The position numbers and the translations under genes are program-made. A DNA stretch of 32,432 nucleotides from Gemmatimonas sp. (GTDB lineage: Bacteria; Gemmatimonadota; Gemmatimonadetes; Longimicrobiales; Longimicrobiaceae), in NCBI GenBank assembly GCA_009380025.1, contig WHSP01000009.1, forward strand, positions 29,286 to 61,717, in the 5' to 3' direction. Below, piece by piece: positions 6,673 to 32,414 of the stretch (the stretch's first letter is position 1; every line of letters begins with the position of its first letter). The notes beneath the pieces were generated by a model. It saw only the letters and a program-made list of their open reading frames with translations. It did no database searches and was not told the DNA's origin.

Positions 6673-9600
6673 ATGTACCAAACGCTGTCAACGCGAATGT
6701 CCCGATTGGCGACTGGTCTAGCGGTCGCGCTGCTGGGCATCGCACCCACCCTCGATGCGCAAACCGGAACGGTCACCGGGGTGGTGACGGATGCGCAGAC
6801 GCTGCAACCGCTGGCGTCAGCACAGGTCTCGATCACGGAGCTCGGGACCGGAGCGGTGACGCAACAGAACGGACGCTTCGTGCTGATCAATGTGCCCGCC
6901 GGCACGCACACGGTGAGCGTCCAACGAATCGGGTATGGAACGGAGGAAGCGGCGGTCACGGTTGCCGACGGCGAATCCGTCAACCAGGACTTCGCGATCA
7001 CCGAAGAGGCCCTGGCGCTCGACGAAGTCATCGTGACGGGCACACCGGGAGGAAGCCAACGCAGGGCGATAGGCAACACGGTGGCGACCATCGACGCCGC
7101 AGAAATCACCGAGCAAGTCGCCGTCAGCACCATGCAGGACATGCTCGCCGGCCGCACACCCGGACTCCAATAGAATGTTCAAAACGGCAGCGTAGGAGCC
7201 GGCTCTCCCGTCCAGCTTCGCGGCGCCGGCAGCTTCACCTCCTCACGGAACCAACCCCTCATCTACGTCGACGGCGTCCGCGTCAACAACAGCACGGAGG
7301 CTGGGCCCAACCTCGGTGAGGGCGAGCAAGTCAACGTCCTGGACGACTTCAATCCCGAAGACATCGAGAGCATCGAGATCATCAAGGGTCCGGCGGCCGC
7401 CAGCCTCTATGGCACCGAGGCTTCCGCCGGCGTGATCCAGATCATCACCAAGCGCGGCCAGGAGGGCGCCCCGCGGTTCAACGTCTCGATCCGGCAGGGT
7501 ACGAATTTCATGATGGATCCCGCTGGCCGGCTGGGAACGATGTGGACATGCCCTGAGAGCGAATCTCCAGGCACCTGCGAGACGGAGGAAGAGCTCGTTT
7601 CGTACAACATGTATGAGGAAGCGAATCGATACATCCAGGAGGGCTACTTCGACTGGCCCACCGAGAACCTCTACTCATACGGCCGCGCTCAGGGCTACAA
7701 CCTGGACGTGGCGGGTGGTGCTCAGGCGATCCGCTATTTCGTTTCGGCCAACTACGACACCGAGGCTGGGTCGGCCTGGTACAACACGGACGAGACGTTC
7801 CGGCTGCGTGGGAACCTCGGCGTCATCTTCAACGACTACCTTTCGCTCGACGTTTCGAGCGGCTTCGTCGATGGTAGCACGCGCTTCGAGGGATCCACCA
7901 TCGGCGACGGCGGTCTCTGGCAGGATATGGTCTGGTCCAACGGCTACTACCTGGATCGGATCACGCCGTTCGACAGCCCGACTTCGCGCAACCCGAACCC
8001 GCGGCTCGGCGGCTTCCAGGAGCACCTTCCCGCCGATGTCGCTGAGACCGAGGGCACGCGGGACTTTTCTCGGTTTACCGGCTCCGCGACGCTCAACTTC
8101 GTCGTGCCGGAGATCGACCTCGGGGTCACGACAGCCGGAATCAACTCTCGGGCCGTCGTCGGTATCGACAAGGGGTGGGACGTCAACCGCCTCCTCTTTC
8201 TGGCCGAGGACGGCATCGTGCCGGAGCACCTGAGGCAGTATACCGATGAGTGGTCGTCGGTCTACTCCGAGACTGAGACGGGCGAGATGACGTACGAGCG
8301 ACCGATCAGCACCAACCTCACGTTCGACTATTCGCTCAGCGCGAGCCTCGACCTGGGAGAGGCGTTCGGTTCGCAGACGTCGTTCGGCGCGCAGTACTAC
8401 ACCAGCTCGGTCGATGAATTCGCTAACAGCGGGAACGGGTTCGCCTCGCCGTTGTCGAAGACAATCAATCAGCTGTCGCAGCCGCAGATGACCACGGAGT
8501 ACTCCTACACGGAGAACAAGTCTCTGGGTTTCTACGTGCAGCAGGAAGTCAGCTTCCGGGATCGGCTGTTCCTCACGGGAGCGATGCGCTTCGACGACAA
8601 CTCCACTTTCGGCACCGACGCGCCGGCTATCCGCTATCCGAAGGTCTCGGGCGCATGAGTCATTTCTGAAGAGAGCTTCTGGCGCATCAATCCGATCAGC
8701 ACGTTTCGCCTACGCGGCGCGTGGGGCAAGGCCGGTCGTCAGCCGAGCGCGCTATCGGGCCTGAATACCTACACGACGATTCCTGGCCCGGGCGGGGCCT
8801 CTGCCATTCGCCCGGATAGCCTGGGCAACCCGGCGATCGAGCCGGAGGTCAGTACTGAGCTCGAGCTTGGTTTCGACTTCGCCATGTTCGACGATCGGAT
8901 CTCAGGTGAGTTCACGCACTACTGGCGGAAGGATGAGAACCAGCTCCTCGGGGTCGACGTTCAGTCCAGCTACGGCATCCCGGGCGACGTGGAACAGAAT
9001 CTCGGAAGGATCGACAACTGGGGATGGGAGGCGCTGGTCAGTACCCGGGTGTACGACAGTCCAAGTTTCTCGTTCGGCCTCGATCTCTCCGCCGACCACA
9101 CGGACAACGAGATCAAAGAGCTCGGCGCCTACAACGGGGACGTCGCGGACGGCATACTCGTCGGGCTACCCTTCCCCAACGTGATCACGGACAACTGGGT
9201 CCTGTCAGCTGAGTTCGACCCGGATGCGCCGGCCGCGGGGAACTTCACGAACGCGTTGGGTGAGCGGATCACCGCCCTTTGTGATGCCGGGATCAGCCTG
9301 GCGCCAGAGGGGGCCACTAATTCGGCACAGTACGGGCGGATGCCGGGCGGTGACGCCGTTCCCTGTTCCGAGATCCCGGATCAGCAGCTGTACGTCGGGC
9401 GCGGGTTCGCGACCCATACGTTCAGTGTTGCGCCGACGATCGGGCTATTCGGCAACCAGCTGCAGATCTTCGCGCTGGCCGAAGGACAGTACGGCCGGAC
9501 GAATCTCGACAACGCCCACGCCTGGGGTCACTTCTACAACAACTCGAAAATTGCCCAGCTGGAGAACGATGCGCTCTGGGTGGCCAGCGATCGCTTGAAC

Positions 9601-9897
9601 GAGACCGGAGTGGATCACGCCAAGACGATCTACGACGCCTCTTTCTGGAAGCTGCGCGACGTCGGTGCCCGGTACAACCTGCCGCAGTCCATCGTCCAGC
9701 GGACGGGCGCGGACCGGGTCTCCCTTGCGATCTCTGGCCGCAACCTCTGGACTATCTGGCGGGCACAGGAGGAAATCTGGGGTCACGCCATCACCGACCC
9801 TGAGTTTGGAGATCCGACGGTGCAAGGCGGCGGCGGGAACTTCTACTCAATTCCGCCTCTGTCGAGCGTGAACGCGACCCTTCGAGTCTCGTTCTGA
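6673..9897 (+). pseudogene. SusC/RagA-type TonB-dependent receptor with two in-frame stop codons
   Basis: Read through, this is a full-length receptor of about 1074 codons. It has a signal peptide (MYQTLSTRMSRLATGLAVAL), a carboxypeptidase-regulatory-like domain from residue 30 (TGTVTGVVTDAQTLQPLASA), the segment LDEVIVTGTPGG, a plug (PLIYVDGVRVNN; IESIEIIKGPAAASLYGTEA) and a barrel ending in RVSF, the usual aromatic C-terminus. TAG at 7171-7173 (codon 167, after AGRTPGLQ) and TGA at 8656-8658 (after YPKVSGA, before VISEE) interrupt it, with no frameshift anywhere. The TGA lies where homologues as I recall them carry Trp. Each stop is one transition from a sense codon (CAG or TGG). TAG and TGA end other genes here, so recoding is unlikely. 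It is either a recent pseudogene, a readthrough gene or carries sequence errors. SusD follows. Confidence 0.85.
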
Positions 9898-10018
9898 TCG
9901 CGAGGTTGCCAAGCTGAGCGTAGGTCGATGCCATGTGGGCGGCAGTGCGCGACTTCGATCGCGCCGCTGACCGCCAGGCTCGACGACCATCCATTTGACC
10001 AACCAACGACTTTTGAAG

Positions 10019-11629
10019 ATGATCTTCCAAGAATGGCAAGGACAACGCCGGGGGAGGGCGGCCACGGCCGGCATCGTTCTCCTCTCCCTCGGTGGGTTCA
10101 CCGCATGTGATAGCTTGCTCGAAGCGGACCTGCCCCACGTCCTCACCGATGCTGCGATCGAGGCGCCGGGAACGGCCGAGACCCAGGTAAACTCGGCGAT
10201 CGCACTCTTCGAGTGCGGCTACTCGGCGCTCGGCGTCACAGCGCTCGGTCACGAGGACGTGATGGAGTCAATCGCGGGTGCCGCACAGCAACATCAGTTC
10301 GATCAGACCCCCAACCTGGGCAACTGTGACCCGACCTCGGCGAGCACCGCCTGGCTGGACCCGGTGATGGGTGCGCGGTCCCGGATCTCGACCGATCCGG
10401 CGAAGCTGGTATCCACCGCTGAGGGCGAAGCGAACGGGGTCTATGACCGGATCAACGGCGAGTGGGCGCTCGGTGCGGACGGAGAGAGGCTCTCCGCGAT
10501 CGCTTCGATCTATATGGCCATGTCACTCACCCACCTCGGCGAGTTCGTGTGCGAAGCGTCGTTCGACGGTAGCGATCTCGTGACACCGACGGAATTGCTC
10601 AACCTCGCCGACGACTGGATCACCAGTCGTGCGCTCGTGCACATCGACGAGTTCGGCGACTTCACGATGCCCTTCGGGATCGCCCCGAGCGCTCGGGGGA
10701 TGGCGTTGGCAGTTCGCTCGCGAATCCGCTGGGCGAACCGCGACCTCGAAGGCGTGGCGGCCGACGCAGCCGAAGTCCTTGGCGGCAACCCGACGTTCAC
10801 CGCCTGGATCACCCGTGAGACCGGCGAGACCCGACGGAACAAGATCTACCATTCGGTGACGGCCGTCGGCTACTCCGGAGGCCTCGGGATCAACGACTGG
10901 TGGAACCCCTCGATCCGCAGGGCCAATCCGGTCACGGGCGAGCCGTGGCCGGATCCGATCCCCTTCACGGGCTACCTATTCCTTGGCATTATGCCCGACG
11001 GCCGGGCACTCGAGGCGGGGAACCTCCCCGTTCGTTGGGCGGAGGAGGAGCGTGACGACGCCCGCCAGCCGATTCCGCTGAACAACGGTGCGGTTCCCGA
11101 CACCCGCGTCCAGCACATCTTCAAGTCCATCCAGGGACCCGCGCCTCGCGAAGTGCCCGATCGCTACGGGGCCGAGGACGACGACATCCCGTACATGTCG
11201 TGGGAAGAGCTCCGGCTCATCCAGGCGGACTACAACCTGAGCCAGGGAAATCTAGAAAGCGCAATCGACCATGTGAACTCGCTGCGCGTTGGGCACGGGC
11301 TTCCCGAAGTTTCCGGCGCCTATCGTACGAGCCTGGCTGGCAACGCCGAGGCGGTGCGCTCGTTGCTGCTCGAGGAACGGCGGCGGGAGTTCTACGCGGA
11401 AGGGGGTCGCTACTGGTCAACCAAGATCCAGAACACCGACGTTCTCTGGTTCCCGCGCAACGAGGGGGAAACGCCCTTCCAGGGTTATGCGCTCGAGGGG
11501 GGGGTTAGACAGCGGTTCGGCGAGGACGAGTATACCGCGAATCCATACTTCATCGAACGCGGAGGTCTCGATGCCCGCGGGACGGGCTGTACAGACCTGT
11601 TCGGAGCGCAGGCGCCGGTGATCTTCTAG
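10019..11629 (+). CDS. SusD/RagB-family outer-membrane lipoprotein
   Basis: The product is 536 residues. It carries a signal peptide with lipobox GGFTAC (Cys30), followed by DSLLEADLP, the usual start of mature SusD-like proteins. Helical TPR-like stretches follow (ASIYMAMSLTHLGEFVCEAS; WEELRLIQADYNLSQGN). The C-terminal third contains SLLLEERRREFYAEGGRYW, the conserved RagB/SusD motif. SusD proteins sit on the cell surface, bind glycans, peptides or other oligomers, and cap the SusC channel. The substrate cannot be deduced; no glycosidase genes are adjacent. The ATG at 10019 is preferred; an in-frame TTG at 9995 is also possible, and neither has a clear ribosome-binding site. The gene is intact although its SusC partner is interrupted. 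Confidence 0.9.
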   Translation: MIFQEWQGQRRGRAATAGIVLLSLGGFTACDSLLEADLPHVLTDAAIEAPGTAETQVNSAIALFECGYSALGVTALGHEDVMESIAGAAQQHQFDQTPNLGNCDPTSASTAWLDPVMGARSRISTDPAKLVSTAEGEANGVYDRINGEWALGADGERLSAIASIYMAMSLTHLGEFVCEASFDGSDLVTPTELLNLADDWITSRALVHIDEFGDFTMPFGIAPSARGMALAVRSRIRWANRDLEGVAADAAEVLGGNPTFTAWITRETGETRRNKIYHSVTAVGYSGGLGINDWWNPSIRRANPVTGEPWPDPIPFTGYLFLGIMPDGRALEAGNLPVRWAEEERDDARQPIPLNNGAVPDTRVQHIFKSIQGPAPREVPDRYGAEDDDIPYMSWEELRLIQADYNLSQGNLESAIDHVNSLRVGHGLPEVSGAYRTSLAGNAEAVRSLLLEERRREFYAEGGRYWSTKIQNTDVLWFPRNEGETPFQGYALEGGVRQRFGEDEYTANPYFIERGGLDARGTGCTDLFGAQAPVIF

Positions 11630-15408: not shown

Positions 15409-16284
15409 ATGAAGTCGAGCGTCAGATCTCCAATCCCGACGATCCGAAGGGCGGGACTCGGAATCATTATCGCGGCTGCGCTGCTGCCCTCCCCTGCCCA
15501 CAGCCAGGCGGAAGACATCCCTCGGACGCCGTCCGGTAGACCTGACCTGAACGGCATCTGGCAGGCGCTCGGCAATGCCCACTGGGATATCGAGCCACAC
15601 ACGGCGCGTCCGGCTCTGGCCATGCAGCCGGGGCCGGTCGTTCCGGTACCGGCGGAAGAAGTGCTCGCGCTGGGGGCGATCGGTGCGGTGCCGGCGAGCA
15701 TGGGAATCGTGGTTGACGGCGAGATTCCGTACCTACCGGAAGCGCTCGAACAACGAGAAGAGAACCGGGCGAATTACCTCGAACTCGACCCGGAAATCAA
15801 GTGTTACCTGCCCGGCGTTCCGCGCGGCAACTACATGCCCTTCCCGTTCCAGATCTTCCAGAGTGATCAGAAGTTCTTCATCGCGTACGAGTACGCGGGC
15901 GGGGTACGCGATATCTACCTCGAGGATCCCGGTCCGCCGGAAGTCGACTCGTGGATGGGCCAATCGGTCGGGCACTGGGAGGGCGACACCTTCGTCGTCA
16001 GGGTGAACGGATTCAACGGCCAGACGTGGTTCGATCGCGCCGGAAACCACCACAGCCCCTCGATGACGGTGGAGGAACGCTACACGATGACGAGCCCCTA
16101 TCACATCCTCTACGAGGCAACGATGGAGGATGCGGAGACGTTCTCTCGGCCGTGGATGATTCGGCTCCCGCTCTATCGTCGCATCGAGGAGAATACGCGG
16201 CTCGGACAGTTCAAGTGCGTCGAGTTCGTAGAGGAGCTGATCTACGGAGATCTCCGCAAGAACCCCATCGACCCGGAGAACTGA
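15409..16284 (+). CDS. Secreted protein of unknown function, PDLNGIW / GHWEGDT family (paralogue A)
   Basis: The product is 291 residues. The signal peptide RRAGLGIIIAAALLPSPAHS ends near residue 32; then TPSGRPDLNGIWQALG opens the mature protein. The core carries DPEIKCYLPGVPRGNYMPFP, QIFQSDQKFFIAYEYAGGVR and SVGHWEGDTFVVRVNGFNGQ, followed by MTVEERYTM. The GHWEGDT block is shared with the gene at 17048, so the two are distant paralogues of an uncharacterised exported family often found beside DUF6152 genes. No catalytic motif is recognised. GGGAAAG lies just upstream of the ATG. It opens a plus-strand run reaching 20288. Confidence 0.72.
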   Translation: MKSSVRSPIPTIRRAGLGIIIAAALLPSPAHSQAEDIPRTPSGRPDLNGIWQALGNAHWDIEPHTARPALAMQPGPVVPVPAEEVLALGAIGAVPASMGIVVDGEIPYLPEALEQREENRANYLELDPEIKCYLPGVPRGNYMPFPFQIFQSDQKFFIAYEYAGGVRDIYLEDPGPPEVDSWMGQSVGHWEGDTFVVRVNGFNGQTWFDRAGNHHSPSMTVEERYTMTSPYHILYEATMEDAETFSRPWMIRLPLYRRIEENTRLGQFKCVEFVEELIYGDLRKNPIDPEN

Positions 16285-16289
16285 TCATG

Positions 16290-16458
16290 ACGGGGCTCGC
16301 CTATACGGAGGGGGAGGCGAGGTGCCGATGGTGAGGATTGACGATCTGTTCTACGACGCCTGCCACGAAGAAACTACGCACTCTCCAACGTGCTGAGCGG
16401 TGCCCGCGCCGAGGAACGGCGCGAGGCCGAGGCAGCCGACACCGAGGATCGGAGGTAG
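16290..16458 (+). pseudogene. 3'-end remnant of a gene like the one at 17048
   Basis: A decayed start (AYTE, then GEVPM and RIDDLFYDACHE in shifting frames) matches the C-terminus of the gene at 17048 (AYTLPWGGEVPMNRMDEQLY...ACHEGNYAL). From about 16358 the DNA becomes almost identical to 18018-18118, encoding NYALSNVLSGARAEERREAE, but one base is missing after CACGAAG, so the frame is broken. The natural stop TAG at 16456 and the GGAGG that serves the next gene are kept. Only the last 50 or so codons of a gene about 356 codons long remain. Confidence 0.8.
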
Positions 16459-16918
16459 TCGAGATGCGATGGATCTATGCGACACTGGCCATGGCCGTCC
16501 TTGCATTGATGGTGCGGACCGCTCCGGTGGAGGCACACCACGCCTTCGGAGCCGAGTTCGACAGCGACGCGCCAATCCGGCTCCAGGGCGAAATCGTCCG
16601 GCTCGAATGGGTGAACCCGCACTCCTGGATCCACCTCGAGATCGAGAAGGACGACGGCACCGCCGAGGTCTGGATGGTGGAGGGGGGCACGCCGAACGTG
16701 TTGCTCCGACGCGGTCTCCGGCGCGACTGCCTGACGATCGGGACCGAACTGATCGTCGACGGCTATCAGGCCAAAGATCACTCGCTGCTCCGTGCCAACG
16801 GCCGCGACGTGACCTTTACCGACGGGCGTAAGTTCTTCATGGGCTCTTCCGGAACCGGAGCCCCCGACGATGGTGCGGAGCAACGCGAACGAGAGACCTC
16901 GGGACGTTGTTGACGACG
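16358..16918. repeat. Tandem duplication, upstream copy
   Basis: This is about 96% identical to 18018-18579 and covers the tail of the upstream secreted-protein gene plus the whole DUF6152 gene. Upstream of 16358 similarity drops sharply, marking a duplication or gene-conversion border. Confidence 0.85.
16464..16913 (+). CDS. DUF6152-family exported protein, copy 1
   Basis: The product is 149 residues. The signal peptide MRWIYATLAMAVLALMVRTA ends near PVEAHH. The mature start HHAFGAEFDSDAPIRLQG, followed by EIVRLEWVNPHSWIHLEIE, is the signature of DUF6152 proteins. GTPNVLLRRGLRRDCLTIGT follows, then VDGYQAKDHSLLRANGRDVT and DGRKFFMGSS. The fold is probably a small beta-barrel; function is unknown. 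The N-terminal HH of the mature protein and the conserved NPH could bind metal, which is speculative. GGAGG at 16451 is eight bases upstream and lies inside the remnant gene, preserving the translational coupling seen at the second copy. It differs from copy 2 by only two residues (Ala/Ser and Thr/Asn). Confidence 0.85.
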   Translation: MRWIYATLAMAVLALMVRTAPVEAHHAFGAEFDSDAPIRLQGEIVRLEWVNPHSWIHLEIEKDDGTAEVWMVEGGTPNVLLRRGLRRDCLTIGTELIVDGYQAKDHSLLRANGRDVTFTDGRKFFMGSSGTGAPDDGAEQRERETSGRC

Positions 16919-17047: not shown

Positions 17048-18118
17048 ATGAATCTACCGCGTTCAGTTTTGCTCCGATGGGCTCTCGCGGGAATCGGAGT
17101 CCTGGCGCTCGCCGATTCGACGGCCGCCCAGGCAGCGGCGCGTGACGGCGGCGACTACGTTGCTCCGCGGACCGTCTGGGGCCACCCGGACCTCCAGGGG
17201 AATTGGAGGAACGCGACGCTTACACCGCTGGAGCGTCCCCGCGGACAGGGCCCGACGCTCACCGAGGCTCAGGTCGCGGAGATGGAGGGCGCACTGCGGG
17301 CCCGCTTTGCTGAAGACGCGTCGCCGAGCGATCCGAACCGAGCCGCGCCTCCCGTGGGTGGCGACGGCTCCACCGGAGCAGCCGGCGGGGTCGGTGGCTA
17401 CAACACCATCTACATCGATCCGGGGGAACGGGTCGCCAGAGTAAACGGTGAGTATCGCTCTTCGTTGATCACGAACCCGCCCGACGGCCGGATTCCGGAG
17501 CTCACGGACGAGGCAAGGCAGCAGTTGATGGCAGCGCGCCAGAGTCGGGGGTCGTTCGGCATATACGACAACCCGGAGAACCGGCCGATCGGCGAACGCT
17601 GCATCCTCTCGTTCGGCTCGAACGCTGGACCGCCGATGCTACCCAACGGCTTCTACAACAACAACTACACGATCGTCCAGAACGAGGACCACATTCTCAT
17701 TCTGGTGGAGATGGTGCACGACGTCCGGATCATCCGTCTCTGGGACGGTGAGGAGCTCCCCGAGAGCATGCGTCCCTGGTTCGGCGACTCGTGGGGGCAT
17801 TGGGAGGGTGAAACGCTGGTCGTCGAGACGACGAACATCCACCCGTCGCAGGGTTTCCGCGGTTCGCCAGCAGAGGGCGCCCGCGTGGTCGAGCGGTTCC
17901 GTCGGGCCGACGAGAACACGGTCGTGTACGAGTTCACGGTTCACGATCCCGCGTACACGCTGCCGTGGGGCGGCGAGGTACCGATGAACAGGATGGATGA
18001 GCAGCTCTACGAGTACGCCTGCCACGAAGGGAACTACGCACTCTCCAACGTGCTGAGCGGTGCCCGCGCCGAGGAACGACGCGAGGCCGAGGCAGCCGAC
18101 CCCGAGGATCGGAGGTAA
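17048..18118 (+). CDS. Secreted protein of unknown function, PDLQGNW / GHWEGET family (paralogue B)
   Basis: The product is 356 residues. The signal peptide VLLRWALAGIGVLALADSTA ends near AAQ. The mature part opens with TVWGHPDLQGNWRNATLTPL. The middle has a Gly/Ala-rich insert around residues 95-120, then GERCILSFGSNAGPPMLP and NNNYTIVQNEDHILILVEMV. Next come RIIRLWDG and DSWGHWEGETLVVETTNIHP, and the C-terminal block is EYACHEGNYALSNVLSGARA. The GHWEG(D/E)T and ACHEGNY blocks define an uncharacterised exported family frequent in Acidobacteriota, Gemmatimonadota and marine proteobacteria. AGGAGGG at 17037-17043 supports the ATG. Its tail contains the ribosome-binding site of the following DUF6152 gene, six bases after its stop, so the pair should be co-translated. 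Confidence 0.75.
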   Translation: MNLPRSVLLRWALAGIGVLALADSTAAQAAARDGGDYVAPRTVWGHPDLQGNWRNATLTPLERPRGQGPTLTEAQVAEMEGALRARFAEDASPSDPNRAAPPVGGDGSTGAAGGVGGYNTIYIDPGERVARVNGEYRSSLITNPPDGRIPELTDEARQQLMAARQSRGSFGIYDNPENRPIGERCILSFGSNAGPPMLPNGFYNNNYTIVQNEDHILILVEMVHDVRIIRLWDGEELPESMRPWFGDSWGHWEGETLVVETTNIHPSQGFRGSPAEGARVVERFRRADENTVVYEFTVHDPAYTLPWGGEVPMNRMDEQLYEYACHEGNYALSNVLSGARAEERREAEAADPEDRR

Positions 18119-18579
18119 TCGAGATGCGATGGATCTACGCGACACTGGCAATGGCCGTCCTTGCGTTGATGGTGCGGACTGCTCCGGTGGAGGCGCACCA
18201 CGCCTTCGGAGCCGAGTTCGACAGCGACGCACCGATCCGGCTCCAGGGCGAAATCGTCCGGCTCGAATGGGTGAACCCGCACTCCTGGATCCACCTCGAG
18301 ATCGAGAAGGACGACGGCACCGCTGAGGTCTGGATGGTGGAGGGAGGCACGCCGAACGTGTTGCTCCGACGCGGTCTGCGGCGCGACTGCCTGACGATCG
18401 GCACCGAATTGATCGTCGACGGCTATCAGTCCAAGGATCACTCGCTGCTCCGTGCCAACGGCCGCGACGTAACCTTCACCGACGGGCGTAAGTTCTTCAT
18501 GGGCTCTTCCGGAACCGGAGCGCCCGACGATGGTGCGGAGCAACGCGAACGAGAGAACTCGGGACGTTGTTGAACGACG
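18018..18579. repeat. Tandem duplication, downstream copy
   Basis: Partner of 16358-16918. The reading frames are intact here, so this is probably the source or the better preserved copy. The two units start about 1.66 kb apart and flank the whole 17048 gene. Confidence 0.85.
18124..18573 (+). CDS. DUF6152-family exported protein, copy 2
   Basis: The product is 149 residues with the same signal peptide, HHAFGAEFD start and EWVNPHSWIH motif as the gene at 16464. By my count the two genes differ at 18 of 450 bases; 16 changes are silent and two alter a residue. That bias indicates both copies have been kept as working proteins since duplication, or that they exchange sequence. GGAGG at the end of the upstream gene, eight bases before the ATG, couples it to that gene. 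Function is unknown. Confidence 0.87.
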   Translation: MRWIYATLAMAVLALMVRTAPVEAHHAFGAEFDSDAPIRLQGEIVRLEWVNPHSWIHLEIEKDDGTAEVWMVEGGTPNVLLRRGLRRDCLTIGTELIVDGYQSKDHSLLRANGRDVTFTDGRKFFMGSSGTGAPDDGAEQRERENSGRC

Positions 18580-18610
18580 GCCGGGACCCAGGTCGCGCAT
18601 ACTCCGGGCA

Positions 18611-18636
18611 CTGGATCCCAGCTTTCGCGGGATGAC
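18611..18636. repeat. Dispersed palindromic repeat, half copy D
   Basis: CTGGATCCCAGCTTTCGCGG followed by GATGAC matches the right half of the element at 25820-25846. It lies 37 bases after the DUF6152 stop and 16 bases before the 44-base direct repeat. Confidence 0.65.
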
Positions 18637-18652
18637 TACGTCTTCGTGGAAT

Positions 18653-18696
18653 TCGTCCGCCGGCGCCCCGTTTCGGCCCGTCGCCAACGTTCAGGA
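18653..18696. repeat. 44-base direct repeat, upstream copy
   Basis: This is identical to 18821-18864 except for one base. It lies in the noncoding leader of the cytochrome gene, yet encodes the same peptide as inside that gene (SSAGAPFRPVANVQ against SSAGAPFRPVASVQ). It is a displaced duplicate of coding sequence. Confidence 0.8.
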
Positions 18697-18739
18697 TCGG
18701 AGTACGCCCAACGCCATTCACCGCTTCGCAGGGCGCACT

Positions 18740-19237
18740 ATGAATTCGAGACCCATCGCTTCCTTCGTGGGCTTCCTTGCCCTGGCGTCGTGTGCCGGCG
18801 ATGCCCCCGACGCGGAATCTTCGTCCGCCGGCGCCCCGTTTCGGCCCGTCGCCAGCGTTCAGGAGTTGATGCTGACCGTGGTGGAGCCAGGAGCGGAAAC
18901 GTACTGGGACGCGGTCGGGTGGATCATCGATGCGGAGGGAACCCAGGAGATTCGGCCGGGCAGCGACGAGGAGTGGGAGGCAGTGAGGAACGCTGCGTTC
19001 CAGGTGGCAGAATCAGGCAACCTGTTGATGATGGAGGGGCGAGCGCCGGAGGGTGACGAGACCTGGATCGCGATGTCCCAGGCAATGACGGCGATGGCCG
19101 AGCGTGCGATCGATGCCGCCCTCGCGAGGGACGAGCTGGGTGTGTTCAGGATCGGCGGAGATCTCTACGAGACGTGCACGGCCTGCCACGCGGCCTATGC
19201 CCTCGAAACGTTGAGGCCGAACGCCCAGGTCGAATAG
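18740..19237 (+). CDS. Cytochrome c'-like lipoprotein
   Basis: The product is 165 residues. The signal peptide MNSRPIASFVGFLALASC ends in a lipobox with Cys18. The body is helical, and CTACH at 146-150 near the C-terminus, in the context LYETCTACHAAY, is the haem c site of cytochrome c'/c556-type four-helix bundles (CXXCHxxY). The protein should sit on the outer face of a membrane and carry one haem; whether it transfers electrons or binds gas cannot be told. The frame is open upstream to 18530, but that part overlaps the DUF6152 gene and a repeat. I therefore start at the ATG at 18740, in front of the signal peptide. The next gene follows 13 bases after the stop. Confidence 0.82.
   Translation: MNSRPIASFVGFLALASCAGDAPDAESSSAGAPFRPVASVQELMLTVVEPGAETYWDAVGWIIDAEGTQEIRPGSDEEWEAVRNAAFQVAESGNLLMMEGRAPEGDETWIAMSQAMTAMAERAIDAALARDELGVFRIGGDLYETCTACHAAYALETLRPNAQVE
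18821..18864. repeat. 44-base direct repeat, copy within the cytochrome gene
   Basis: Encodes residues about 28-42 of the lipoprotein, the linker after the lipid anchor. See the copy at 18653. Confidence 0.8.
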
Positions 19238-21757: not shown

Positions 21758-23680
21758 ATGGTGACGAGCGCATTGAGTGCTATACCCATCCTCAGCACGG
21801 CGATGCTATTCGCGGTTGGCGCGCAGTCTCCCGCCCAACAGGGTGCGGTGAATGGCGAGTGGTCGACGTATGGGGGAGACCTGGGGAGTACGAAGTACTC
21901 CGCGCTGGACCAGATCGACGAAGCGAACGTCACAGGAGTCCAGGTCGCATGGGAGTGGAGGTCGCCGGACGATGCCCTCGCCGAGACCAATCCAGAGGTG
22001 GTGGGTGGCACATTTCAAGCCACTCCGCTGATGGTGAATGAGGTCCTGTACGTCAGGACGTCGTTGAGTATGGCTGCAGCCATCGACGCATCGACCGGCC
22101 AACAGCTCTGGGTCTTCGACCCGAAGAGCTATGAGGCCGGACGACCGACGAATCTCGGGTTCAATACGCGTGGCGTTGCGTACTGGACCGACGGCGCGGA
22201 AGAACGGATCTTCCTGGCGACGGGTGACTCTCGTCTCTGGGCACTCGATGCGTCGACGGGCGAGCCGAGCCCGGCGTTCGGTAATGACGGAGGCATCGAC
22301 CTGACCCAAGGTCTTCGCAGGGAGGTGCCGCGGAACAGCTACCAAGTCATGTCGCCGCCATTGGTGATCGGGGATGTCGTGGTGGTCGGCTCGTCGATCT
22401 TAGATGTCCCCCAGTTCATGACGGCTCCGCCCGGTGACGTGCGTGCCTTCGACGTCCGAACGGGCACACAACGCTGGATCTTCGAAACCGTTCCGCGGCC
22501 GGGCGCCGTCGGCAATGAGACCTGGGAGAACGGTGGCTGGGAATACACGGGGAATACCAACGTCTGGACGATAATGAGCGCGGACGAGGAGCTCGGCCTC
22601 GTCTATCTCCCGGTGGGAACGCCGACGAACGACTGGTATGGCGGGCATAGACTGGGCGATAACCTCTTCGCGGAAAGCATCGTCGCTGTCGAAGCGGAGA
22701 CCGGCCGGCGGGTATGGCACTACCAACTCGTGCATCATGGGGTCTGGGATTACGACATCCCCGCTGCGCCTACGCTCGTAGACGTGACGGTCGATGGTCG
22801 CTCGATCCCTGCGCTCGCGCAGATCACAAAGCAGGGCTTCGTCTTTGTCTTCGACCGCGGCACCGGCGAGCCGGTGTGGCCGATCGTGGAGCGTCCGGTC
22901 CCCGAATCGACGGTTCCGGGTGAGCGGCTATCGCCCACGCAACCTTTCCCTACCCGACCGCCTCCGTTCGAATCACAGGGGATCTCGGACGACAACCTGA
23001 TCGACTTCACGCCGGAGCTCCGAGCCGAGGCGGAGCAGATCATCGCCGGTTACGATTACGGCGGGCTTTTTCATCCCCCTTCACTGCGGGGAACCATCAA
23101 TAATCCCGGGTGGTTTGGGGGCGCCAACTGGCGGGGTGCCGCGGCCGACCCGGAGACGGGCTGGTTATATGTTCCGTCCCGCACCGGACCCATGGTCGTC
23201 CAACTCGTCGAAGCAGACCCGGAGAGCTCAGACTTCCGCTACGTTCGCGGAGGGCAACAAAGCGTAGCCGGCCCCAGCGGACTGCCGCTCACCAAGCCGC
23301 CGCACGCGCGCTTGACGGCCATCGATCTGAATACGGGCGAGCACGTCTGGCAGATCCCCCTCGGGGACGGCGTACGCCAGAGCGTGATCGACCTCGGGGT
23401 CACCGACCCTGGGCCGCTCGGGGGCGGAGCATTCACGGGCCCGCTACTGACCCCAACGCTCCTGTTCATCGGTCATTCCGGTGCTCGGGACGGTGACTCG
23501 GAAGCAGGAGCCGCCCTCCTGGCAATCGACAAGGCGACGGGCCAGCAGGTCCATGCTATTCCGCTGCCAGCCGTCGCGGGTGGAACCCCCATGACGTACC
23601 TGGCCGATGGCCGTCAGTTCATCGCTGTGGCAGTCAGCGGAAATGAGGGTACCGGACTCGTCGGCTTGGCCCTGGAGTGA
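21758..23680 (+). CDS. Exported PQQ-dependent (quinoprotein) dehydrogenase
   Basis: The product is 640 residues. The signal peptide MVTSALSAIPILSTAMLFAV ends near AQSPAQQ. The mature protein begins GEWSTYGGDLGSTKYSALDQ, the classic start of eight-bladed quinoprotein dehydrogenases. Blade tryptophan motifs recur (AAIDASTGQQLWVFD, RAFDVRTGTQRWIFE, TAIDLNTGEHVWQIPLGD). HHGVWDYDIPAAPTLVD holds the conserved Asp region near the PQQ site. The family oxidises alcohols, glucose or similar compounds in the periplasm and passes electrons to cytochrome c or ubiquinone. No fused cytochrome domain or N-terminal membrane anchor is present, so it needs a separate acceptor. The substrate is not predictable. 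The PETase-like gene follows after 44 bases. Confidence 0.88.
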   Translation: MVTSALSAIPILSTAMLFAVGAQSPAQQGAVNGEWSTYGGDLGSTKYSALDQIDEANVTGVQVAWEWRSPDDALAETNPEVVGGTFQATPLMVNEVLYVRTSLSMAAAIDASTGQQLWVFDPKSYEAGRPTNLGFNTRGVAYWTDGAEERIFLATGDSRLWALDASTGEPSPAFGNDGGIDLTQGLRREVPRNSYQVMSPPLVIGDVVVVGSSILDVPQFMTAPPGDVRAFDVRTGTQRWIFETVPRPGAVGNETWENGGWEYTGNTNVWTIMSADEELGLVYLPVGTPTNDWYGGHRLGDNLFAESIVAVEAETGRRVWHYQLVHHGVWDYDIPAAPTLVDVTVDGRSIPALAQITKQGFVFVFDRGTGEPVWPIVERPVPESTVPGERLSPTQPFPTRPPPFESQGISDDNLIDFTPELRAEAEQIIAGYDYGGLFHPPSLRGTINNPGWFGGANWRGAAADPETGWLYVPSRTGPMVVQLVEADPESSDFRYVRGGQQSVAGPSGLPLTKPPHARLTAIDLNTGEHVWQIPLGDGVRQSVIDLGVTDPGPLGGGAFTGPLLTPTLLFIGHSGARDGDSEAGAALLAIDKATGQQVHAIPLPAVAGGTPMTYLADGRQFIAVAVSGNEGTGLVGLALE

Positions 23681-23724: not shown

Positions 23725-24600
23725 ATGAGCACACTTTCATCGCCGTCCTGTTGGCGGCTGATGGCGTCTGCGACGTTACTCACGTGGCTTGTTCCAACCG
23801 CGCCGCTCGCACAGGGAGCGGCGCCCACACCAACCTCGCTCTCGGGCAACGGAGAGGAGGAGGTTGCAACGTATACCGATTTCCCCGATGCGTCCGAGTT
23901 CGGGGATGCGACGATCTATTATCCTGCTGACGTGGACGAGCCTGTCGGGGGCGTGGCGATCGCCCCGGGTTTCACCGAGCGGCAGGGCCATATCGAGTGG
24001 TGGGGGCCCCGGCTGGCCTCGCACGGGTACGCCGTGCTCATCCTCGACACGAACGACCCCCGCGACCGTCCGGACGTTCGCGCCGAGGCGTTGATCGCCG
24101 CTGTTCGAACGCTCAAGGAGGAGAATAGCCGTCAGGGTAGTCCACTGTTTGGCAAGGTCGATACCGGGCGGATGGCAGTGATGGGCCACTCGATGGGTGG
24201 CGGCGGAGCGCTTCTCGCCGCCGACCAGCTCGGCGACGAGATCCAGGCGGCCATTCCCTTTACCCCTTGGCAACCTGACGGCGACTTCGACGGGATCACC
24301 GCCCCGACGTTGGTGATCGCGGGCTCCGCAGACGATATCGCTGGTGTCGACGAGCACGCCTGGCCACACTTCCAGTCGATCCCGGCTTCGACGCCGAAGG
24401 TGTACATGGAGGTCGAGGGAGGGGATCATTTCATCGCCGATACGACTCGCGGGGAAGACCTGGAGTTGATTGGCCGCTACGGTATCGCCTGGCTGAAGCT
24501 CTACCTCGATGGCGATGACCGATATCGTGACTTCATCTTTGGGGAAGCACAGGAAGGCACCACGGCGAACCTTTCACGTTACGTCGAGAACCCTGAATGA
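23725..24600 (+). CDS. Secreted alpha/beta-hydrolase resembling cutinases and PET hydrolases
   Basis: The product is 291 residues with a signal peptide (LMASATLLTWLVPTAPLAQG). The mature domain tracks the bacterial cutinase/PETase family closely. ATIYYPADVD opens it, then PGFTERQGHIEWWGPRLASH (oxyanion residue Phe83), then DTN and KVDTGRMAVMGHSMGGGGAL (nucleophile Ser156). Next come IPFTPW (Trp182), a catalytic-Asp region SADDIAGV (Asp203 or 204) and EGGDHF (His235), and finally YGIAWLKLYLDGDDRYRDF. The known family cleaves esters of cutin and synthetic polyesters. WWGPRLASHG and KVDT.RM are especially like Ideonella PETase. Unlike that enzyme it has His before the nucleophile (GHSMGG), Phe at the oxyanion position and no cysteines after the signal peptide. 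I start at the ATG at 23725; a GTG overlapping the previous stop would add 16 residues. The natural substrate is unknown. Confidence 0.85.
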   Translation: MSTLSSPSCWRLMASATLLTWLVPTAPLAQGAAPTPTSLSGNGEEEVATYTDFPDASEFGDATIYYPADVDEPVGGVAIAPGFTERQGHIEWWGPRLASHGYAVLILDTNDPRDRPDVRAEALIAAVRTLKEENSRQGSPLFGKVDTGRMAVMGHSMGGGGALLAADQLGDEIQAAIPFTPWQPDGDFDGITAPTLVIAGSADDIAGVDEHAWPHFQSIPASTPKVYMEVEGGDHFIADTTRGEDLELIGRYGIAWLKLYLDGDDRYRDFIFGEAQEGTTANLSRYVENPE

Positions 24601-25717: not shown

Positions 25718-25771
25718 CGTCGATGGCGGAACTATGACTATCCGGGCTGGGTGTTTGTCGGGCGCCCACCA

Positions 25772-25846
25772 GTCATTCCGCGAATGCGGGAATCCAGGGC
25801 GCGGCATACGACGGAGCAGCTGGATCCCCGCTTTCGCGGAGATGAC
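25772..25846. repeat. Dispersed palindromic repeat, copy E
   Basis: GTCATTCCGCGAATGCGGGA followed by ATCCAG, 22 unique bases, then CTGGATCCCCGCTTTCGCGG followed by AGATGAC. This is the most complete inverted pair apart from copy A, placed just before the GSDH gene. Confidence 0.78.
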
Positions 25847-27713: not shown

Positions 27714-29057
27714 ATGCTCACAAATACCCTCGTCCGGACGGTAATTAGCGGAGCCATCGCCGTAACAGCGGTGTTACCCCCAGCGGCCTACGCCCAAACC
27801 GATTCGGGCAGTACGGTGGCAGATCCCCCGACATTCTATTCGAACGTCCTTCCCATCCTCCAGGACAACTGCCAGGTCTGTCACCAGCCCGCGGGCCTGA
27901 ACCTGGGCGGCATGGTAGCCCCGATGTCGTTGATGACCTACGAGGAGACGCGCCCGTGGGCGGGGGCCATGGCCCTCGCGGTCGAGCATCGAAAGATGCC
28001 TCCGTGGCATGCCTCACGGGCATTCGAGGGCAAGTTCCAGGGCGAACGCTATCTGGACGAGGCAGAGATTGAGACGATCGTCGCCTGGGCGGAGGCCGGT
28101 GCTCCCGAAGGAACACCTCCCTCGAACTGGGAGGCTCCGGAACCGGACAAGGAAGCCGATGGCGGCTGGGCGCTCGGCGAACCGGACCTGATCCTGGAGC
28201 TGGACGAGCCGTTCCTCCTGGAAGACGATGTCGAGGACCTCTACGTGACCCTAACGGCGACGTTGACGGAGGACATGCTGCCGGAATATCGCTGGATCAA
28301 GTCGGTCGAGTATCGACCGGGCCCGTATGTCCACCACATCCTTCGAGGAATGGGTGGTCTGGCGCCCGGGAACCAGCCTATCATTTACGACAACGGCTAT
28401 GGCCGGCTGATGCCGGAGGGGCCACGGGCGATCGAGTTCGACATGCACTATCACAAGGAGGCGGGTGAGGAGACGGCAGCCTACGATCAGACGGAAGTCG
28501 GTATTCGCTTCATGGAGCCGGGCGAAGTGGTCCGCTACCGAACGACTTCGGAGATGCTGGGGATCATGGACTTCGTGATCCCACCGGATGAATCGTCGTA
28601 CTCCGCTTCCCGCGAGTACCATTTCGAGGAGGACGTGTACATCGCGGGCTTTACACCTCACATGCACCTTCGAGGCAAGGCGGCGTTGTACGAGCTGACC
28701 TATCCGGACGGGCGCCACGAGCAACTCCTACACGTCCCCAGCTACGATTTCAGCTGGCAGCACAGCTACGACTTCAAGGAGCCAGTTCGGGTGCCGGCCG
28801 GGTCCACCTTGCGGTTCACTCTCTGGTGGGACAACTCGGAGGAGAACCCATCCAACCCGGATCCCACCGTGGAAGTCAGATACGGAGAGCCGACGACCGC
28901 CGAGATGGGCTTTGGGTTCATGCAGCTTAGGGCCATCGAGGAGGATGAAATCATCGTGGGTCAGCCGATCTCGGACGAGGTCCGGCGGTTGTACGGTGAA
29001 ACGATCCCGATGAGCAACGACGCGGAGGATCGGCGTCGGAGCGGGTCGGGACAGTAG
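27714..29057 (+). CDS. Exported cytochrome c fused to a copper type II ascorbate-dependent monooxygenase-like region
   Basis: The product is 447 residues, with a signal peptide ending near AAYAQ. Residues 38-130 form a cytochrome-c-like domain with CQVCH at 53-57 and KMPPWHA at 94-100. Residues about 155-410 resemble the two-domain copper core of peptidylglycine/dopamine monooxygenases. HH at 207-208 (GPYVHHIL) and HYH at 245-247 suit the first copper; HMH at 316-318 (FTPHMHLRGK) plus a methionine in MGFGFMQL (398 or 403) suit the second. In known enzymes copper activates oxygen to hydroxylate a C-H bond, with ascorbate as reductant; here the fused haem could deliver electrons. The substrate is unknown. 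GGAGG seven bases upstream fixes the start. Confidence 0.82.
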   Translation: MLTNTLVRTVISGAIAVTAVLPPAAYAQTDSGSTVADPPTFYSNVLPILQDNCQVCHQPAGLNLGGMVAPMSLMTYEETRPWAGAMALAVEHRKMPPWHASRAFEGKFQGERYLDEAEIETIVAWAEAGAPEGTPPSNWEAPEPDKEADGGWALGEPDLILELDEPFLLEDDVEDLYVTLTATLTEDMLPEYRWIKSVEYRPGPYVHHILRGMGGLAPGNQPIIYDNGYGRLMPEGPRAIEFDMHYHKEAGEETAAYDQTEVGIRFMEPGEVVRYRTTSEMLGIMDFVIPPDESSYSASREYHFEEDVYIAGFTPHMHLRGKAALYELTYPDGRHEQLLHVPSYDFSWQHSYDFKEPVRVPAGSTLRFTLWWDNSEENPSNPDPTVEVRYGEPTTAEMGFGFMQLRAIEEDEIIVGQPISDEVRRLYGETIPMSNDAEDRRRSGSGQ

Positions 29058-31634: not shown

Positions 31635-32414
31635 GTGCGAGCTGAGTTGAGGAAGGACGAGGGTACTGACCAGCTGCGTGCCCTCGGCGTCGAGGAAGGC
31701 GGTGTTCTGCTCGTACACACCTCCTTTCGAGCGGTGCGACCCGTCGAGGGAGGTCCCGCAGGGCTGATCAGCGCGCTACGCGAAGCACTCGGCCCCCAGG
31801 GCACGCTCGTCATGCCCTCGTGGGGCGAGCTCGATGATGAGCTCTTTGATCCTGCCGTGACGGCTGCCTCTCCGGACCTAGGCGTTGTTGCCGATGTTTT
31901 CTGGAGGCAACCGGGAGTCGTTCGAAGCAATCACCCTCAGGCCTTTGCCGCCGCGGGCCCCGCGGCTCCGGAGATTCTCCGCGATCCTCTGCCACTTCCC
32001 CCGCACATCCCCGCCAGTCCAGTCGGTCGGGTGCATGACCTCGACGGCCAGGTCCTCCTCCTCGGCGTTGGCCACGACGCGAACACAACTCTCCACCTGG
32101 CGGAGCTGATTGCAGACGTTCCGTATCGCGTGCCGAAATACTTCACCGTCCTTCACGAGGGCCGGCCTACCCGAATCGACTACGGCGAAAACGACCATTG
32201 TTGCGCACGATTTGCCCTCGCCGACGATTGGCTCCGCGCGGAGGACCTGCAGACTGAGGGTCCCGTCGGACATGCGCACGCGCGGCTCGCTCGCTCCCGA
32301 GATATCGTACGGCTTGCGCTCGATCACCTTCGGCGGGATCCCCTGCTCTTCCTCCATCTGGCCAATGTTGGCTGTCCCGACTGCGATCTGGCACGTGGCT
32401 CGACAGACAGCTAG
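31635..32414 (+). CDS. AAC(3)-family N-acetyltransferase
   Basis: The product is 259 residues from a GTG at 31635, of normal length for the family. Motifs in order: LRALGVEEGGVLLVHTSFRA, GGPAGLISALREALGPQGTL, VMPSW, GVVADVFWRQPGVVRSNHPQ (the conserved NHP region), FAAAGPAAPEIL, PASPVGRVHDLDGQVLLLGV, GHDANTTLHLAE (conserved His/Asp), and a C-terminal GCPDCD. These define aminoglycoside 3-N-acetyltransferases of the antibiotic_NAT fold, which use acetyl-CoA to acetylate aminoglycosides. Many chromosomal members act on other amines, so resistance is not proven. The start is uncertain, as no clear ribosome-binding site exists; an in-frame TTG lies at 31647. The close spacing to the ADOP permease suggests co-transcription. 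Confidence 0.87.
   Translation: MRAELRKDEGTDQLRALGVEEGGVLLVHTSFRAVRPVEGGPAGLISALREALGPQGTLVMPSWGELDDELFDPAVTAASPDLGVVADVFWRQPGVVRSNHPQAFAAAGPAAPEILRDPLPLPPHIPASPVGRVHDLDGQVLLLGVGHDANTTLHLAELIADVPYRVPKYFTVLHEGRPTRIDYGENDHCCARFALADDWLRAEDLQTEGPVGHAHARLARSRDIVRLALDHLRRDPLLFLHLANVGCPDCDLARGSTDS

Follow-up and report, generated by a model that had tools for sequence, protein, structure and literature searches.

The gene at positions 23725–24600 of the window (the whole stretch of DNA that was analysed, 32,432 nucleotides) is real, and almost certainly encodes a secreted enzyme that cuts esters and belongs to the PETase/cutinase family. The enzyme is a genuine member of this family, in a phylum, Gemmatimonadota, that is already known to carry it. 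What is new is a cysteine-free clade, mostly of lipoproteins, and its co-occurrence with one PQQ dehydrogenase. Taken as a whole, the protein is likely to be a Sec-exported serine ester hydrolase of Pfam family PF12740 from a cysteine-free Gemmatimonadota clade, which would act on an ester other than PET and could be coupled to a quinoprotein.

Family, fold and active site of the hydrolase

The open reading frame of the hydrolase is intact from ATG to TGA and encodes 291 amino acids; the same frame opens earlier, with a GTG at 23677, which would give 307 amino acids. Its features are the following.

23725–24600, + strand: predicted PETase-family secreted serine esterase, with Ser156/Asp203/His235 and a Phe83/Met157/Trp182 binding motif
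23725–23814, + strand: N-terminal signal peptide of about 30 amino acids (...TAPLAQ/GAAP), read from the translation, with a putative cleavage point

A sequence-only reading of this DNA had listed the motifs PGFT, WWGPRLASHG, KVDTGRM, GHSMGGGG, TPW, SADDIA and GGDHF as signs of a polyester hydrolase. All of them were found, and the similarity is far above chance. The membership in the PETase/cutinase family was borne out by the PF12740 (PETase) profile of Pfam, which matched residues 41–305 of the 307-amino-acid frame with 257.7 bits (cut-off 28, E 1.6e-76), by the top sequence matches in PDB (E 9e-64), namely IsPETase and variants of it, headed by the double mutant W159H/S238F (7osb), and by a PETase-like structural model. 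The only match in NCBIfam was to the BHET hydrolase BdeA (NF051441). As its score of 212.1 bits is far under the equivalog cut-off of 520, the protein is not a BdeA equivalog.

The DLH and Abhydrolase families of Pfam also matched the protein weakly, as if it were a dienelactone hydrolase or another intracellular alpha/beta hydrolase mistaken for a PETase. However, when the best matches were checked for this, as the sequence-only reading had advised, DLH reached merely 25 bits, more than 230 bits behind PF12740. Moreover, classical dienelactone hydrolases have a Cys-Asp-His triad, whereas this protein has a Ser-Asp-His triad, a signal peptide and PETases as its fold matches. With that profile gap, the dienelactone hydrolase reading was dropped; its probability is practically negligible.

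An AlphaFold2 model of the hydrolase, built with an 11-sequence alignment, had a mean pLDDT of 81.5 and a pTM of 0.82; its confidence was low for the signal peptide and for residues 237–242. Its matches in PDB were PETases and cutinases throughout (VIA-align and Foldseek; Z about 35, rmsd 2.0–2.6 Å, about 40% identity), and thus the structural check, run as a fold-level comparison, returned a PETase-like overall fold. Sequence and model together show a predicted alpha/beta-hydrolase fold with a Ser-Asp-His triad, a Met oxyanion residue and a Phe/Trp clamp, and put a His and a Phe next to the triad, as in cutinases.

When the protein was aligned with 11 orthologs from the order, with a Piscinibacter PETase, and with homologues from actinobacteria and from three gammaproteobacterial genomes, Ser156, Asp203 and His235 aligned with S160, D206 and H237 of IsPETase and were invariant across the homologues. 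Of the triad proposed earlier, Ser156 and His235 stood as they were, and the choice between Asp203 and Asp204 was narrowed to D203, which never varies among the homologues, unlike D204. With the corresponding IsPETase positions in brackets, the hydrolase shares M157 (M161), W182 (W185) and I205 (I208), but differs at F83 (Y87), E85 (A89), H155 (W159), G200 (C203), F236 (S238) and I237 (C239). The triad and clamp residues are invariant or conservatively replaced in the 11 order-level orthologs. H155 and F236 are natural counterparts of both changes in the 7osb double mutant.

The Phe that had been noticed in place of the usual oxyanion Tyr is there, as Phe83 aligns with Y87 of IsPETase. It is ordinary, since this position is Phe, Tyr or Trp within the clade and is Phe also in Cut190, PET27 and PHL7. 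The lack of disulfide cysteines held as well: the sole Cys is residue 9, within the signal peptide, so the mature chain is cysteine-free and both IsPETase disulfides are therefore missing. In contrast, the Asp loop had been taken to be one residue shorter than in known enzymes, and this was wrong. Both phmmer and MAFFT aligned SADDIAGV to the loop of the ENDSIAPV type without a gap, and the idea of a shortened loop was dropped, as the length equals that of the IsPETase loop. In the stretch compared, the loop following His235 has 21 residues, that of the Piscinibacter enzyme 20 and those of the actinobacterial enzymes 17, that is, one more than in the IsPETase-like enzyme and four more than in actinobacterial type I cutinases.

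The likeness to IsPETase thus covers the fold, the triad, the Met oxyanion residue, the clamp Trp, the WWGPRLASHG core and the extended loop after the catalytic His, at an identity of 38–40%. With the actinobacterial type I cutinases of Streptomyces and Nonomuraea (about 36% identity) the hydrolase shares the triad, the His before the catalytic Ser and the Phe after the catalytic His, but these enzymes have a C-terminal disulfide and the shorter post-His loop. The Bacteroidetes enzymes PET27 and PET30 resemble it in the Phe at the oxyanion/clamp position (Phe-Met-Trp in PET27) and in having no active-site disulfide, but differ by a type IX sorting domain in both and by one disulfide in PET30. 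The homologue of a gammaproteobacterial MAG (L033) is 47–49% identical, with Glu89, His159 and Trp216 and a cysteine-free mature chain, but has a post-His loop longer by eight residues and is accompanied in its genome by another, divergent paralog. In that MAG (G402, loci L033 and L056), one of the two divergent PETase-family genes encodes GHSLGGGA instead of GHSMGGGG.

PET-degradation criteria and the probable substrate

PMC5881046 used, among its search criteria for PET hydrolases, GxSMGGGG, an F/Y oxyanion residue, a W/Y clamp residue and I/V180, and the hydrolase has all of these (GHSMGGGG, F83, W182 and I205). The same criteria include a C-terminal Cys pair and DxDxR(Y)xxF(L)C, and here the hydrolase reads DGDDRYRDFIF, with no Cys in the mature chain. 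In PMC12224614, an M5-PETase is described as having the M4 features together with Met after the catalytic Ser and DxDxR(Y)xxFxC; in a motif check the hydrolase had the Met and lacked the Cys. It is consistent with the M4 level as far as the motifs read from its sequence can be compared with published patterns and spacings known by their description, and by this scheme it would be a pseudo-PETase, because the earlier features are present and the M5 Cys is absent. In that study, the enzymes that acted on PET were all M5 enzymes of the IsPETase clade, none of the M1–M4 enzymes tested there being active, and homologues from Gemmatimonadota are said to have a lower PETase activity owing to the Glu and His at positions 89 and 159. 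The type I/II PETase scheme of Joo et al., in the form in which PMC13422221 and PMC13396203 cite it, calls for at least one C-terminal disulfide, and the hydrolase has none.

The polyester activity suggested by the sequence-only reading is thus doubtful for PET, since the disulfide and the M5 signature are missing. Several features would nevertheless suit a genuine polyester hydrolase, active on PET or on biodegradable polyesters: the Phe-Met-Trp binding motif is like that of the PET-active PET27 and Cut190, the natural His155/Phe236 pair equals W159H/S238F of the top match 7osb, and the fold is common to PETases. In addition, PET-active PETases without disulfides have been reported, as cited in PMC13422221, and the missing Cys therefore lowers but does not exclude PET activity. 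The failure of motifs is likewise no proof of inactivity, because PET27 and PET30, among other atypical members of the PETase family, do act on PET. Against this stand the absent C-terminal Cys pair and DxDxR(Y)xxFxC, the Glu and His said to reduce activity in homologues from the phylum, and the inactivity on PET of all tested M1–M4 enzymes (PMC12224614). We consider a true polyester hydrolase unlikely, and a substrate other than PET quite likely; a search of the literature for activity data on the cysteine-free clade returned none. From its sequence, the protein is best read as a secreted esterase, probably with a natural ester as substrate.

In the reaction that we propose by analogy with IsPETase, Ser156 would attack the ester carbonyl to form an acyl-enzyme, which would then be released by water. 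The substrate would most likely be a natural soluble or surface ester, or a small oligoester, rather than PET.

Host, distribution and localisation

The contig that holds the window is 61.7 kb long and belongs to a 5.0-Mb genome, 97% complete, of an uncultured member of Gemmatimonadota. The hydrolase gene occurs in none of the 20 other genomes of its own family (f1), as if the contig had been misbinned and came from another host. However, the PyrB protein of this contig has its nearest matches in its own genus (86% identity) and the next ones in other genomes of family f1, and for two window proteins the best named match in a plasmid collection was Gemmatirosa. The contig is therefore correctly placed, and misbinning, which we regard as very improbable, was dropped on the PyrB evidence. 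The assignment to Gemmatimonadota made from the sequence alone agrees with these matches; a search of this assembly for a 16S rRNA gene found none.

Elsewhere in the window, TonB-dependent receptor-like open reading frames followed by a SusD-like protein (7432–11629) form a Bacteroidota-style uptake pair, and a gene of the aminoglycoside 3-N-acetyltransferase family (31635–32414; PF02522, 186.6 bits) adjoins an ADOP-family permease.

Of the 154 genomes that represent the order, 13 carry the hydrolase gene, its own genome included, as do 13 of 395 sampled across the phylum; the orthologs are 60–71% identical to the window copy, and the other carriers all belong to one other family. A close homologue was present in 3 of 369 sampled genomes of the gammaproteobacterial class, and plasmid records gave only distant homologues, with less than 42% identity. 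In the tree, the Gemmatimonadota and Gammaproteobacteria MAG sequences formed a clade apart from IsPETase and the cutinases (support 97/99), within which the tree gave the window copy no resolved place. Its presence in this genome may be due either to transfer or to differential loss.

It had also been proposed that such a protein would widen the known range of the family. This was not supported, as PMC12224614 (ISME J 2025) already describes Gemmatimonadota PETase homologues, grouped with Gammaproteobacteria, in which Glu and His likewise replace A89 and W159. Its clade V shares with the window copy the phylum and, in its Gemmatimonadota M5 members, Glu and His at positions 89 and 159. However, its five M5 variants must carry the Cys of DxDxR(Y)xxFxC, to judge by their description, whereas the window clade has none.

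A lipobox (LASC, LTSC, LVSC or VTAC) ends the signal peptide in 10 of the 11 other near-complete order-level orthologs, whereas the same pattern match gave none in the window copy and in one ortholog (G333). This suggests that the enzyme is tethered to the membrane as a lipoprotein in most relatives, and is probably soluble in the window genome. What is newly seen is a cysteine-free clade of 13 genomes of the order, mostly with predicted lipoprotein signals, which appear to have been lost in the window copy.

The PQQ dehydrogenase neighbour

Upstream and downstream of the hydrolase gene, the window encodes the following proteins.

17048–18118, + strand: 356-amino-acid secreted protein of unknown family, which recurs near the PQQ dehydrogenase in other genomes
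18124–18573, + strand: DUF6152 protein, second of two near-identical copies; DUF6152 recurs near the PQQ dehydrogenase elsewhere
18530–19237, + strand: possible c-type cytochrome with a CTACH motif, with relatives beside PETase/PQQ genes in loci L048 and L051
20441–21619, + strand: second alpha/beta hydrolase (DUF3089, PF11288), upstream of the dehydrogenase
21758–23680, + strand: periplasmic PQQ-type dehydrogenase (a complete PF01011 propeller, 672 bits over all 595 positions) with a signal peptide
27714–29057, + strand: cytochrome c/copper monooxygenase-like protein; four other loci have relatives of it close to the PQQ dehydrogenase

The PQQ dehydrogenase, recognized earlier from the sequence, does lie directly upstream, the hydrolase ATG following its stop codon by 44 nucleotides on the same strand. 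It scores under the cut-offs of subfamilies TIGR03074 and TIGR03075, and is a distant relative of quinohaemoprotein alcohol dehydrogenases in PDB (E 5e-39). Such a neighbour is not rare, because the genome (G000) has a rich set of about two dozen PF01011 genes in 5 Mb (36 matched stretches). Scans for promoters and terminators around the gene pair found nothing, about one of each being expected by chance. The profile PF07519 (the tannase/MHETase partner) had no match, and gave none in the control genomes either.

An ortholog of the dehydrogenase, counted at an identity of at least 64%, was present in 12 of the 154 genomes, and the hydrolase in 10 of these 12. This amounts to 10 of the 13 hydrolase genomes against 2 of the 141 others (Fisher p 1e-11, a value that ignores shared ancestry and does not come from independent tests). 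The sets of genera carrying each gene were identical (6 of 61 genera), a statistic that ignores shared ancestry as well. On the other hand, the two genes lie side by side on one strand in just three genomes, from two genera (G000, G284 and G385, the latter two of genus g44), and this adjacency is missing in 9 of the 11 near-complete order-level orthologs; the dehydrogenase orthologs found elsewhere, at 69–74% identity, lie at other loci. In G385 (L051, 2796–7771), the PETase gene is flanked by two PQQ dehydrogenases on opposite strands. Thus, the link between hydrolase and quinoprotein drawn in the sequence-only reading, which we also infer, receives moderate support from the co-occurrence in genomes.

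Hydrolase and quinoprotein may also be unrelated neighbours, found together through shared ancestry or lifestyle in a few genera, and we give this nearly an even chance. The adjacency in just three genomes of two genera favours it, as do the many PF01011 paralogs and the fact that five of the six carrier genera belong to one family, where ancestry or lifestyle may explain the sharing. So does genus g34, in which the PETase gene is in G159 and G393, and the dehydrogenase in G161 and G795. The strongest points for a link come from family f1, where the window genome alone carries either gene and has both side by side, and from genus g44, where two of four genomes have both genes, and the other two have neither the hydrolase nor a dehydrogenase match above 58%. 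A coupling of the hydrolase to the quinoprotein is therefore put forward as a tentative reading.

The hydrolase has no conserved neighbourhood, its surroundings varying between genera. Some neighbours do recur around the dehydrogenase: DUF6152, on which a literature search found nothing, the family of the 356-amino-acid secreted protein, and the cytochrome c/copper-monooxygenase-like protein. The products of 15409–16284 and 17048–18118 are related secreted proteins with PDL.G.W near the N-terminus and no Pfam match, which recur near PQQ dehydrogenases. A direct duplication of 300 nt (16372–16671 and 18032–18331, 96% identical) extends into the two near-identical DUF6152 genes, and its upstream copy begins in an apparent fragment of the 17048–18118 gene. 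Within the frame of the possible cytochrome, whose predicted N-terminus resembles read-through of an interspersed repeat, a 45-nt direct repeat (18652–18696 and 18820–18864) is 98% identical. The frames VIPR..RESR and DPRFRGDD at 25751–25840, seen also in L053 within 10213–10947, resemble a common interspersed intergenic repeat; because of them, the GTG start of the GSDH open reading frame at 25751 is probably too early.

If the two enzymes are coupled, the PQQ dehydrogenase that co-occurs with the hydrolase would oxidise, in the periplasm, the alcohol that the hydrolase releases, and the electrons would pass to a c-type cytochrome, for which we infer the product of 18530–19237 as a possible acceptor. 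There is a precedent in Ideonella, which oxidises ethylene glycol with PQQ dehydrogenases (PMC11166783). That the cysteine-free, mostly lipoprotein PETase clade, the specific PQQ dehydrogenase and cytochromes form a periplasmic module, which cleaves esters, oxidises alcohols and moves between Gemmatimonadota families as a unit, we regard as rather doubtful.

When PETase-like genes turn up in metagenomes from the sea or from soil, they are often taken as a capacity to degrade plastic. The clade described here has the fold, the triad and the very His/Phe pair that was engineered into IsPETase, yet is cysteine-free, and offers a good test of the natural role of PETase relatives. It also calls for caution: matches to a profile should not be equated with the degradation of plastic.
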